The notes beneath the pieces were generated by a model. That model saw nothing but the letters and a program-made list of their open reading frames with translations, was not told the origin of the DNA and searched no databases. A stretch of DNA of 64,000 nt from Smithella sp. (GTDB taxonomy: Bacteria > Desulfobacterota > Syntrophia > Syntrophales > Smithellaceae). Position 1 is the first letter of the stretch, and each line of letters begins with the position of its first letter. The stretch is taken from contig JAGPFC010000015.1 of the NCBI GenBank assembly GCA_018056685.1, positions 1 to 64,000 on the forward strand. Reading direction: 5' to 3'. This document shows, one piece after another, positions 3,203 to 42,392 of this stretch. A program made the position numbers and the translations under genes.

Positions 3203-4384
3203 TCACGAACATTCCCGGATTGCTTCTGAAAAGCCCGGGATGGCGTTGATAATGGTTTGATCATCAACGCAGTAGGCAATACGGAAATACCCCGGACAGC
3301 CGAAACCGCTTCCCGGTACAGCCAGGATGTTTTTCTTGAGCAGGATTTTGATGAATTCCACATCATCGGGTAGAGGACTTTTCACAAAAAGATAGAAAGC
3401 ACCCTGCGGTTTGGCGAATGTATATCCCGCCTTCGACAGCCCGGCACACAACAAATCACGCTTCTTTTGATACACTTTCACATCGACCGCCGCATCCTGC
3501 AGTTTAAGTACAATTCTCTGCATCAGGGCGGGTGCGTGCACAAAACCCAGAATTCTGGTGCACAAAATCAGGGCGCTGATTAACTCTTTCGCGTCATCCA
3601 GTTTCGGATTGACGGCGATGTACCCTATCCTTTCGCCCGGCAGGGAAAGTGTCTTGGAATACGAATAGGCAACAATGCTGTTGGCGTAGGCTTTTAACAC
3701 GCCGGGCACCTTGATATGGTCATAAACAATCTCATTGTATGGTTCATCAGAGACAAGATAAATGGTTTTATTGAGCTCCCTGCCCTTTTTCTTTAAAAGA
3801 ACGGCCAGGTCCTTTATATTTTTTGGACTATAAACCCTGCCGGTCGGATTATTGGGCGAATTGATAATGATCGCTTTCGTTTTTTTATTGATAGCCTTCC
3901 CAATGGCATCAACGTCGAGCGAAAAATCTTCTTTCGTGTTGACGAATTTTACAACGCCGCCGAAATTTTCCACATAGAAAGGATATTCAACAAAAAAAGG
4001 CTTGAGGACGATCACTTCATCTTTCGGGTCCAGCAGGGATTTAAAAATAACGTTTAGCGCTCCGGCCGCCCCGCAGGACATGACGATATGGTCGGCTGTC
4101 AACTTGAGACCGTAGGTTTTGTTGATCTTTTCTGAAATGGCCTGCCTGGTCTCGGCAAAACCGGCGTTGGGAGCGTAGCCGTGTTTCAGGGGAATATGTT
4201 TGGCGGCAAGATTTCTCAATTCTTTTTTGAATTCTTGCGGCGGTTCCACATTCGGATTGCCCAGACTGAAATCATACACGTTATCCGCCCCGTATTTTTT
4301 TTTCATCAGGGCGCCTTCTTCAAACATTTTCCTGATCATCGATGAATGGGACATCGACGCCTTGAGTTTTTTAGCAATAGCCAT
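3203..4384 (-). CDS. PLP-dependent class I/II aminotransferase
   Basis: A 393-residue fold-type I aminotransferase, probably transferring an amino group between an amino acid and a 2-oxo acid in the cytoplasm. Visible motifs are SPNNPTG (176-182), the Asp that contacts the pyridine nitrogen in SDEPY (212-216), and the Schiff-base lysine in SYSKTLSLPGERIGY (K244). The length is normal for aspartate-type enzymes. Annotators usually call this group aspartate or alanine aminotransferase; the substrate cannot be read from the sequence. The ATG start at 4384 follows the small membrane protein gene by about 20 bp, suggesting one transcript. Confidence 0.88.
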   Translation of the reverse strand: MAIAKKLKASMSHSSMIRKMFEEGALMKKKYGADNVYDFSLGNPNVEPPQEFKKELRNLAAKHIPLKHGYAPNAGFAETRQAISEKINKTYGLKLTADHIVMSCGAAGALNVIFKSLLDPKDEVIVLKPFFVEYPFYVENFGGVVKFVNTKEDFSLDVDAIGKAINKKTKAIIINSPNNPTGRVYSPKNIKDLAVLLKKKGRELNKTIYLVSDEPYNEIVYDHIKVPGVLKAYANSIVAYSYSKTLSLPGERIGYIAVNPKLDDAKELISALILCTRILGFVHAPALMQRIVLKLQDAAVDVKVYQKKRDLLCAGLSKAGYTFAKPQGAFYLFVKSPLPDDVEFIKILLKKNILAVPGSGFGCPGYFRIAYCVDDQTIINAIPGFSEAIRECS

Positions 4385-21928: not shown

Positions 21929-22927
21929 ATGAAAAAACAACACAAGTATTGTCTGTACTGCGGCGGGGAAACTGTCAAAAAATTTGAAGATAACGTCCGG
22001 AGGGATTTCTGCCCGGCCTGCCATTCCTATTTTTATATCAATCCGCTACCCGTTGTTTCTTCAATTCTCGAATCATCGCGCGAGGTCCTCCTCGTGAAAC
22101 GGGACCGGGCACCGTCCAAAGGATTATGGTGTCTGCCGACCGGATTTGCGGAAACCGGCGAAAGTATCGAAGAAGCCGCCCTGCGGGAACTGGAAGAGGA
22201 AACCGGTATCAGAGGCAAAATTATAAAACTGCTGGACGTGGATTCTTACAAAAGCCGGTTTTATGGTGACTTGCTTTTTCTGACTTTCGTAGTGCAGCAA
22301 ACCGGCGGGAAACTTTGCGCCGGCGACGATTGCTCACAGGCCCGTTTCTGGCCCGTAAACAAGTTGCCGCCCCTTGCCTTCCGGTCCAATAAACTTGCCC
22401 TGGAAACCTATATCAAGAGCAGGAAGGATTACTGGGCCATTTTCGATTCCATCGAGCACGCCGATAAAAAAACGCTTCCCGCCGCGGTTGCGAAGAACTC
22501 TCTGACACGCCGTTTAGTCAATGTCATCATTAAAAACAAGGAAAAAATTATCGAGCAATGGCTGGATGATGTTGTTACCAACCCCTCCACAAGCGAATAC
22601 CACCATGTCGAAAGGTCTGTCCTGTATAATATCTGCGACAGGATTCTATCCCAGATCACCCTCTGGCTGGGCGATGTGCATGACGTCAACAAAATAAGAA
22701 ATTTTTACACCAAGCTGGGCAGGGAAAGGAAAAAATCCGGCTTTAAACTCAGTGAGGCCCTGAGCGCTTTAAGCCTTATCCGCAAGCACATCTGGACCTT
22801 CGCACTTGCTCAGGATGTCCTGCAAAAAAATCTCGATCTCTTCATGACTTTTGAACTCCAGAGAAGAATGACCGTCTTTTTTGATCTGGCAACTTTTTAT
22901 TTAACGCGCGGACATGAAGGTGTCTAA
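21929..22927 (+). CDS. NUDIX hydrolase with zinc ribbon, fused to an RsbRD N-terminal-like domain
   Basis: A 332-residue three-part protein. Residues 1-35 form a zinc ribbon (CLYCGG and CPACHS). Residues about 36-165 are a NUDIX domain with a complete box GFAETGESIEEAALRELEEETGI, typical of NUDIX enzymes acting on NADH, ADP-ribose or related nucleotides. Residues about 185-330 are all-helical (IIEQWLDDVV, RERKKSGFKLSEALSALSLIRKHIW) and resemble the RsbRD N-terminal domain found in stress-signalling and histidine kinase proteins. The fusion suggests nucleotide sensing coupled to signalling; this is inference. It forms an operon with the methyltransferase. Confidence 0.8.
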   Translation: MKKQHKYCLYCGGETVKKFEDNVRRDFCPACHSYFYINPLPVVSSILESSREVLLVKRDRAPSKGLWCLPTGFAETGESIEEAALRELEEETGIRGKIIKLLDVDSYKSRFYGDLLFLTFVVQQTGGKLCAGDDCSQARFWPVNKLPPLAFRSNKLALETYIKSRKDYWAIFDSIEHADKKTLPAAVAKNSLTRRLVNVIIKNKEKIIEQWLDDVVTNPSTSEYHHVERSVLYNICDRILSQITLWLGDVHDVNKIRNFYTKLGRERKKSGFKLSEALSALSLIRKHIWTFALAQDVLQKNLDLFMTFELQRRMTVFFDLATFYLTRGHEGV

Positions 22928-22932
22928 GTTTT

Positions 22933-22960
22933 ACGTTCTATGTTCTACGTTCTATGTTCT
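22933..22960 (+). repeat. 14-bp perfect tandem duplication
   Basis: ACGTTCTATGTTCT occurs twice without a gap (22933-22946 and 22947-22960), just after the stop codon of the NUDIX-RsbRD gene and about 40 bp before the nitroreductase start. It is AT-rich with no dyad strong enough for a terminator. Confidence 0.9.
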
Positions 22961-23002
22961 AGTTTTAACAATTTTAAATAACCATGGCATTGGAGGGAAA
23001 TT

Positions 23003-40684: not shown

Positions 40685-40791
40685 ATACCTTCAACTCCTC
40701 TTGAAAAAACTTTGTCTATCTAGGGTATTTTCCATGAACTGTCAAGATTAATGAAACAAAGAGATACGCCTCATATTGTTTAGTATAAATT

Positions 40792-40833
40792 ACCCCTGCA
40801 TTCACAATTCAGGATCGATGTAAATGCAGGGGT
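40792..40833. repeat. Inverted repeat in intergenic region
   Basis: ACCCCTGCATT (40792-40802) and AATGCAGGGGT (40823-40833) form a perfect 11-bp stem with a 20-nt loop. No T-run follows on either strand, so it is not a classical terminator. Confidence 0.7.
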
Positions 40834-40849
40834 ATTCTCAAGGTTTCAC

Positions 40850-41168
40850 ATACCCTTTCGCTGCGCTCACTGTCCCCATGCGCTTGAACTACGGGGATAA
40901 TTTCACTTACGCTTTAATGAGCCTGTGGATTCCGCATGGAATCCCAAAGCGAATTATCCCGCCACCTTCAGGTGGTCGGGACAAATTGCGCTAAGCTTGT
41001 TATCAGCTCGCTTTCACTATCCCGCTCAGCTTCGCTTCGGGGATCGTTCGACTAACGCTTCGAACTGCGCTAAGCTTGTTCTCAGCTCGCTTTCACTATC
41101 CCGCTCAGCTTCGCTTCGGGGATCGTTCGACTAACGCTTCGAACTGCGCTAAGCTTGTTCTCAGCGAG
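40850..41168. repeat. Hairpin-rich region ending in 79-bp tandem repeats (about 2.3 copies)
   Basis: This fills most of the 489-bp gap between the GerMN and rubrerythrin genes. Units begin at 40987, 41066 and 41145 (TGCGCTAAGCTTGTT...), spaced exactly 79 bp; the first two differ by one base in the parts compared, and the third is cut after about 24 bp. Each unit holds short mirrored pieces around TTCG, for example GCTTCGCTTCGGGG and TTCGACTAACGCTTCGAA. Upstream, GATTCC-GCAT-GGAATC and CCACCT-TC-AGGTGG form hairpins. No convincing gene is present. Confidence 0.85.
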
Positions 41169-41173
41169 TCTCA

Positions 41174-41752
41174 CTAGTAATTTTCTGCTAAGACTTCATA
41201 AAAAGCCTGCGGATGCTTGCAGGCGGGGCATTCTTTCGGTGCTTCTTCTCCTTCAAAAACATAACCGCAATTGATGCAGTGCCACTTGACGGAAGTTTTC
41301 TTTTTAAAAACCTCGCTCCCGGCAATATTGGCCGCAAGTTTGCGATATCTTTCTTCATGAAATTTTTCCACCTTCGCTATCTGTTCAAAAGAACGCGCCA
41401 CGTCCGGGAAACCTTCTTCTTTGGCTACTTTGGCCGCGTCAGCATAAAGAACGGTCCATTCCATATTCTCACCCGCCGCTGCAGCCTCCAGGTTACTTTT
41501 GGTATCCCCTATGACACCCGCGGGATAGGATGCGGTAATTTCCACTTCTCCGCCTTCAAGATATTTGAAAAAAACTTTCGCGTGTTCCTTTTCATTTTCC
41601 GCTGTTTCCAGAAAAAATCTGGAAATCTGCTCATACCCTTCTTTTTTAGCGACACTGGCAAAAAAAGTATAACGGTTTCTCGCCTGCGCTTCTCCGGCAA
41701 AAGAAGCCAGTAAATTCTTTTCTGTCTTTGTTCCCTTGATTGATTGAGCCAT
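41174..41752 (-). CDS. rbr: Rubrerythrin
   Basis: A 192-residue peroxide reductase of anaerobes. The N-terminal four-helix diiron domain shows [22 protein letters not shown] and [11 protein letters not shown] ligand segments. The C-terminal rubredoxin domain shows [10 protein letters not shown] and [11 protein letters not shown], holding one FeS4 iron. AAAGGAGATG precedes the ATG at 41752. It is apparently monocistronic and reduces hydrogen peroxide using NADH-linked electron carriers. Confidence 0.96.
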
Positions 41753-41815: not shown

Positions 41816-42392
41816 TCATTTTACATTTTTGCCGATTGAAAAAGCCATGCCCAGATATTGCCCGACGCTGTGATACGCGCGATTTTCCGGCACGTAAATG
41901 ACGGGACTAATTTTCATCATGTCGGGCAGACCGTCTTCTCCGAGCATTGCTTCCTCAACCTTCACACCCATGATTTCACCAACAAAATGAATATGAATGC
42001 CGATTTCGATTCGCTCTATTAATTGACATTCTACAATCTTTGATATAAGGAGCGTCAACTTTTTCGCTTTTTACAGCCGTAATTTTTGCTGCCGCAAATT
42101 TATCGGTATTTCTTCCGGAAACAATACCGCAATAATCAGCCCCCATCACCTGTTCGGCAGAAGGCACATTAATCGTAAAAGCCTTTCTTCTCATGATATT
42201 CTCATACGTATATCTTGATTTTCTCAGTGAAATGGCCACGGCCGGTGGTTGAGAACTGCATACACCGCCCCAGGCAACAGTGGCAGCATCAGATTTGCCT
42301 TGTTGATCATACGTTCCAATCAACCATACCGGAGCCGGATAAATCAGTGTTTTGGCATCAAAGGATTTTTTTATTATATACTCCTTAAACAA
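41816..42392 (-). pseudogene. Flavin reductase-like (DIM6/NTAB) FMN-binding protein, frameshifted
   Basis: Two adjacent frames together make one flavoredoxin/flavin-reductase-like protein. Upstream, KKSFDAKTLIYPAPVWLIGTYD through APYIKDC ends in unrelated residues; downstream, VECQLIERIEIGIHIHFVGEI continues in the other frame to 41816. The break is near 42027-42038, where about 11 bp (the family's PVNV-like residues) seem lost. The usual start KKSF is preceded by ATA at 42374-42372, six bases after AAGGAG, where an ATG would be expected; a TTG at 42392 opens the frame but lies before the ribosome site. Two defects argue for genuine decay. Confidence 0.82.

Follow-up and report, generated by a model that had tools for sequence, protein, structure and literature searches.

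MITEs of bacteria, the ERIC and Correia elements among them, are short, non-autonomous, palindromic and intergenic, and insertion sequences of the IS200/IS605 type produce no target duplication. The comparison of the Smithella repeat family with described systems draws on PMC6006769, PMC3733652, PMC2800124 and PMC5606693. In these accounts, the REP, REPIN and BIME sequences with their REP-associated tyrosine transposases (PMC6006769, PMC3733652) resemble the family in being short, high-copy, intergenic hairpins, non-autonomous, grouped in mosaic clusters and preceded on the 5' side by a conserved foot. Unlike the GT[AG]G foot of REP in the same accounts, the foot of the Smithella family is TARTGA (TA[AG]TGA in most copies), and its unit consists of two abutting hairpins, here called A and B, 78 nt in all, with tandem G-A mismatches; no association with a Y1 gene was detected. 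The miniature elements of IS200/IS605 are alike, according to PMC6006769, in having a hairpin near each end, insertion beside a short fixed sequence and a short guide that pairs with the flank. In the Smithella family A and B fill the whole unit, and the joins of nested copies carry no duplication. However, no flanking tetranucleotide was shown as a cleavage site, and a putative guide would lie between the hairpins.

The double-hairpin and repetitive hairpin-forming elements of mitochondria are also alike, according to PMC2800124, which cites work on Allomyces: two hairpins stand back to back, the stems carry compensatory substitutions, and the elements are thought to be mobile and have no flanking duplications. 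The Smithella repeat likewise appears to be a mobile two-hairpin unit without flanking duplication, a likeness of form. In contrast to the organellar elements, to which no sequence relation is known, it occurs in bacteria, has conserved G-A motifs and favours stop codons. With the ERIC and Correia MITEs the family shares the short, non-autonomous, palindromic and intergenic character. It differs from them, and from MITEs of DDE transposons, in that the ends TART... and ...GGGA are not terminal inverted repeats and the restored nested copies have no target duplication. Integron attC sites have conserved R and L boxes around a folded strand and a link to an integrase; at the locus studied here the units have no cassette genes between them. 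The family behaves as REP or IS200/IS605-derived hairpins do but lacks both the REP foot and Y1 neighbours, and was therefore classed as a variant 'mobile hairpin repeat'. No description of it was found in the literature searched, mostly outside subscription journals. Bacterial short hairpin repeats are usually described by sequence similarity alone; the compensatory change in every pair of the main hairpin, the exact ends, the nested insertions and the stop-codon preference of the present family make its movement mechanism testable. The family also accounts for mosaic regions between the genes of Smithella-group genomes, which might be mistaken for non-coding RNA genes.

The locus is situated in the window, the 64,000-nt stretch of Smithella sp. 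DNA that was analysed, at the 3' end of a gene of 192 codons (41174-41752, minus strand) which, from its sequence, we take to be rubrerythrin-like. Of 36 genomes, 33 contained homologues of this gene. The 79-bp tandem repeat of the preliminary description was recovered by TRF at 40987-41165 (period 79, 2.3 copies, 99% matches, score 351). The near-identity claimed for the copies held as well, the two full copies differing at 2 of 79 positions, with a partial third from 41142/41145. The proposed recent duplication was confirmed at 99% match, as a duplication within a dispersed family. The score was exceeded in the window solely by a CRISPR-like array, which extends over 64-930 with repeats like TTCCCCACACACGTGGGGATGAACC and was reported by TRF as a 182-nt period at 64-399.

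The repeat reads on the minus strand and begins at the rubrerythrin stop codon (41174-41176), with which element 1 opens. On this strand its hairpin A (TAGTGAGACTCGCTGAG...GTCGAACGA) occupies 41123-41176, and the TAG of the hairpin doubles as the stop codon. This hairpin was matched at 41119-41179 with 78.9 bits by the model R1, built from the seed alignment A1 of 24 ungapped copies (one of 25 was left out because of a deletion). Hairpin B of element 1 (TCCC...GGGA) abuts A at 41099-41122, minus strand, and has the modal B length of 24 nt. Element 2, the tandem duplicate on the same strand, consists of hairpin A at 41044-41098 (R1 match 41040-41101, 60.0 bits), the 5' part of which is one base longer than in element 1, and of hairpin B at 41020-41043, identical in its letters to that of element 1. 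The partial third tandem copy is a broken-off 5' part of hairpin A at 40984-41019, also on the minus strand.

Beyond the tandem copies, the two short stems named in the preliminary description were read from the sequence, GATTCC/GGAATC at about 40927-40942 and CCACCT/AGGTGG at about 40963-40976. The former belongs to a variant A hairpin on the plus strand (TAATGAGCC...GCGAATTA, 40915-40956; R1 match 40912-40960, 21.8 bits, E 0.0024) with the inner stem GGATTCC/GGAATCC. The latter, CCACCT-TC-AGGTGG, forms a B-type hairpin at 40957-40981, with no strand assigned, which follows the variant A directly and is adjacent to the broken third copy as well. The stretch 40915-40981 is thus a plus-strand variant unit. 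A decayed B-type hairpin, TCCCCGTAG...GCATGGGGA, was read on the minus strand at 40873-40897, where the adjoining stretch gave a weak profile match. The stem expected near 40792-40833 was present as a 16-bp inverted repeat with 94% complementarity at 40791-40834, terminator-like for the rubrerythrin gene on the minus strand. It was placed outside the repeat family because similar stems follow rubrerythrin in repeat-free relatives: the hairpins directly 3' of the gene in element-free loci (e.g. L143, L146) share its position and its CCCCTGCA/TGCAGGGG stem. These hairpins point to 40791-40834 as, most likely, the old rubrerythrin terminator, pushed away from the gene by insertions. A simple terminator scan reported no terminator at this site. 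On the other side of the gene, the window carries at 41816-42392 sequence with a gene upstream of rubrerythrin; L143 lacks this sequence (583 bp) at the equivalent position.

On the element strand, minus here, the unit comprises hairpin A (54 nt) and, directly after it, hairpin B (about 24 nt). Hairpin A reads TA[AG]T-GA-NNC-n-CGCT-GA-GAAC-GA-AC-GAA-GT-GAa-GTTC-GA-AGCG-nnA-GNN-GA-A[CT]TA and is followed by B, TCCC...GGGA. B began right after YTA in 91 of 117 copies, compared with 34 expected in a lenient shuffling control, and was 24 nt long in 57 of the 91, which gives a canonical unit of 54 + 24 = 78 nt. In A1, from which the structure itself was read, 94.6% of the cells were paired vs 24-34% in slid controls, and two-sided changes occurred in 11 of 17 pairs (69 such cells vs 19.7 in shuffles). 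In the larger alignment A2 (121 distinct copies, aligned to the model in a manner that favours the structure), 93.9% were paired vs 19-35% when slid, and two-sided compensatory change was detected in all 17 pairs of hairpin A (453 cells vs 116.7 in shuffles). The middle G-A mismatch was kept in 66 of 119 copies, with 26 fully paired; for the apical mismatch the count was 66 of 115, with no copy fully paired. The apical loop was GNA in 81 of 121, and the apical stem was longer in some copies. GNA loops and sheared G-A pairs form very stable DNA mini-hairpins. The compensatory change, the conserved tandem G-A mismatch and the mostly GNA triloops demonstrate a structural constraint on hairpin A. 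The predicted DNA folding energy was unremarkable for two of three units (z -0.77, -0.70) and lower for the third (-2.32), under an energy model that may give no credit to tandem G-A pairs.

Palindromes might also be multiplied and kept perfect by replication slippage or template switching with no dedicated enzyme. Template switching yields Watson-Crick-only changes, hairpins are mosaic and nested, and local tandem amplification was observed both at the rubrerythrin locus and on contig C67 of the same genome. However, template switching would also pair the outer tandem GA/GA mismatch, which was kept in 114 of 118 copies and was fully Watson-Crick in 1, and precise 78-nt units and dispersal to about 100 sites would be left unexplained. 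Immobility of this kind is considered very improbable. The amplified array on C67 (G000, about 3284-3800, L020) is a nested element array with a 166-nt period, near-identical copies and a run of N; by eye, it adjoins tRNA-like sequence.

Among the options first offered for the repeat, that of a dispersed family proved right, since searches of the source genome (3.19 Mb, 68 contigs) and of relatives matched many copies. In the source genome, a 190-base query from the repeat gave 22 matches, a 77-nt unit taken from another of its loci gave 54 (E up to 10), and R1 gave at least 107 (E up to 1; 150 of 847 candidates scored). R1 matched, at E 1e-4 or better, 33 of 60 genomes including the source: 32 of the 36 genomes of the same taxonomic family, to which Smithella belongs, and, from the rest of the order, 1 of 24. 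Copy counts over the 60 genomes are lower bounds, with at most 90 candidates scored per genome. The relatives compared include Smithella SCADC (G001), M82 (G004) and D17 (G007), each recognised by an identical stretch of 300 bases. In a phylum sample of 395 genomes, with 13 candidates scored in each, 6 matched, each of them one of the 8 that belong to the same family, and none of the 387 outside it did. A strict 33-base pattern (15 stretches) led to named records titled Smithella, Syntrophaceae or Deltaproteobacteria. A phage or plasmid origin was rejected, as searches of phages and plasmids gave no match, nor did an exact pattern in viral contigs. A gene remnant, which would have been indicated by the unit lying within a protein-coding gene of relatives, was rejected: relatives carry the unit outside genes (an overlap with an ORF of at least 100 codons was seen in 13 of 119 copies), and at the orthologous locus the region downstream of the same gene contains the unit in some relatives and not in others. 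The family is apparently mobile and has spread through the intergenic spaces of one bacterial family, often starting exactly at a gene end.

A pattern scan detected 8 sites at which one unit starts within the 5' half of a second, host copy; this nesting position was fixed by the scan pattern itself. Cutting out 77-78 nt restored 17 of 17 host pairs at two of them (L030, L032; the nested site is the same place as in L009), and removal of the unit regained 14 and 15 host pairs at the nested L163 site and one L170 site, respectively. The remaining 4 of 8 sites restored no clean host, which counts against the mobile-element reading. In L161, the unit stands, by eye, between GAAG and CTC of the host copy. 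Target duplication was absent from the restored nested copies. The nested host sites had no TAR, a difference from the IS200/IS605 kind with its insertion beside a short fixed sequence. Orthologous comparison gave 57 indel pairs, many due to sequence other than elements; between SCADC and D17 one site (L210 vs L218) differed by the whole unit and, at the right end, one further base. At the gene ending in KYKM, the elements of L093 and L170 start at the TAA stop downstream and L272 is empty. Of 30 loci compared at the rubrerythrin 3' end, 10 have an element that begins at the stop codon (L139, L142, L144, L150, L152, L158, L161, L163, L165, L167); among the other 20, L140 has perhaps a decayed one and L147 a fragment further on. 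The stretch from the rubrerythrin element to the next gene varies widely between loci, and the ten may go back to a single old insertion followed by turnover or to several independent events. Nested copies and empty orthologous sites together show the insertion of whole units without target duplication.

The position of the unit relative to genes was scanned in 124 distinct copies. For 84 of them an ORF of 110 codons or more on the same strand ended no further than 900 nt away, and in 17 of these 84 the element's own TAR was the stop of the upstream ORF; the next commonest offset, -16, was represented by 4 copies, nested in copies at a stop, and no other offset exceeded 4. The stop-codon copies, nested ones included, fall at 11 different genes. 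Among the 15 stop-codon copies whose B could be recognised, 10 had a TAR 3' of the unit as well; over all copies this was so in 15 of 91. The TAR after the unit suggests entry just 5' of the native stop, and the unit seems to provide the new stop. Since the element carries its own TAR stop, the host gene would be unharmed. A target duplication of TAR was considered and dropped, because the restored nested copies show none, and the event is therefore described as insertion 5' of a TAR. In L030 and L009, elements at stop codons lie within operon-like gene sets; the gene before the element in L030 is presumably mutase-like, and those flanking it in L009 trpD- and trpC-like.

Copies that start at the stop codon of 11 genes on the coding strand, the 46 of 119 copies between two genes oriented like the element and the strong compensatory change in hairpin A would also suit a structured RNA element of the mRNA 3' untranslated region, serving 3' end protection or protein binding and copied as a useful cassette. 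This reading is regarded as unlikely: the upstream gene is opposite in 34 of 119 copies, presence varies among relatives at an orthologous site, whole-unit nesting splits the host hairpin, Rfam gave no match and wobble pairs are few. In the pair cells, the G-U share was 0.98% in A1 and 1.88% in A2 (0.89% and 2.01% with RNAalifold structures), compared with 13.7% in the RNase P RNA of 30 genomes of the same family (RNAalifold structure), where much of the wobble occurs at positions with G-U as the normal state. Departures from the commonest pair were Watson-Crick changes in 452 of 614 cases in A2 vs 126 of 247 in RNase P. The ratio of G-T to A-C among departures was near-equal in both (53:50 in RNase P, 38:32 in A2); this finer test does not therefore separate DNA from RNA, the G-T vs A-C strand test was given up, and the DNA assignment rests on the overall rarity of wobble. 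With moderate confidence, pairing appears to be maintained at the DNA rather than the RNA level. In Rfam the window had no match at the gathering score, and the best hits in the gap had E 0.68 and above. The non-coding RNA locus suggested at the outset is thus less favoured in view of Rfam, the rare wobble and the whole-unit insertion, although the units may still have an RNA function.

The preferred reading is that the repeat is probably a non-autonomous mobile element family of about 78 nt with two abutting hairpins, acting as folded single-stranded DNA that is moved by a structure-specific nuclease/ligase. Movement by an enzyme acting at the foot is inferred, with the HUH type as the best analogy. 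One strand of the unit would fold, probably while exposed in replication; the enzyme would recognise the foot TAR-TGA/GA-AYTA and transfer the folded strand to a new site, where the internal YTA may pair with TAR. Such pairing would account for landing at TAA and TAG stop codons, but the nested hosts lack TAR, so this target choice is not general. It counts against the preferred reading that no such enzyme was found: copy number follows none of the Y1, DDE_3 and TnpB genes. The tandem copies at the rubrerythrin locus, where recent amplification is evident, would have arisen afterwards by slippage or unequal exchange.

The units might instead be REP/BIME sequences that a REP-associated tyrosine (Y1) transposase moves, which would agree with the dispersed intergenic hairpins, the mosaic clusters, the conserved foot 5' of a hairpin and the Y1 proteins encoded by 28 of 36 family genomes. 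With the GT[AG]G foot absent and two hairpins in 78 nt per unit, this assignment is quite unlikely. Copy number did not correlate with Y1 gene number over the 36 genomes (rho 0.20, p 0.24), nor with DDE_3 (rho -0.12) or TnpB (rho 0.12). No Y1 gene was seen in 4 of 23 genomes with at least 15 element copies, and DDE_3 was not found in 16 of these 23. Just 1 of 32 Y1 loci (L123) had a family match, a weak one, in the flanks (about 1.5 kb or less), and none of the 32 showed a full-length TnpA-encoding relative with the same ends. In the source genome, unlike the situation with IS200/IS605, none of the 3 Y1 genes is flanked by elements. By eye, no transposase of an autonomous relative was recognised around the C11 cluster, L185, L214, L009, L030 and L210. 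It is conceivable, though doubtful, that the family represents a new class of folded-strand mobile element, recognised by shape (tandem sheared G-A, GNA mini-hairpin) and not by sequence, directed by YTA pairing with TAA/TAG to stop codons, where it would bring its own stop, with an enzyme that is none of the tested Y1, TnpB and DDE_3. The Y1 protein of L048 has 338 aa and resembles, by length alone, the long Y1 class that, as reported in PMC6006769, has no REP sequences nearby.

Variants were also observed. In L167 (2074-2135; G030, genus g3), G-C pairs replace the outer G-A mismatch (TAGTGCGAC...GTCGCACTTA), which suggests a subfamily with a different foot. Related long-stem units with inner stems CTTGGCCTTTTTCAAGGCAACGCCGAAAAAGG, a further variant type, were found in L170 at 3873-4125. 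Elsewhere in the window, a 7-nt tandem repeat, TCTACGT/TCTATGT, with 5.6 copies was detected at 22923-22961, at the 3' end of the ORF ending at 22927.
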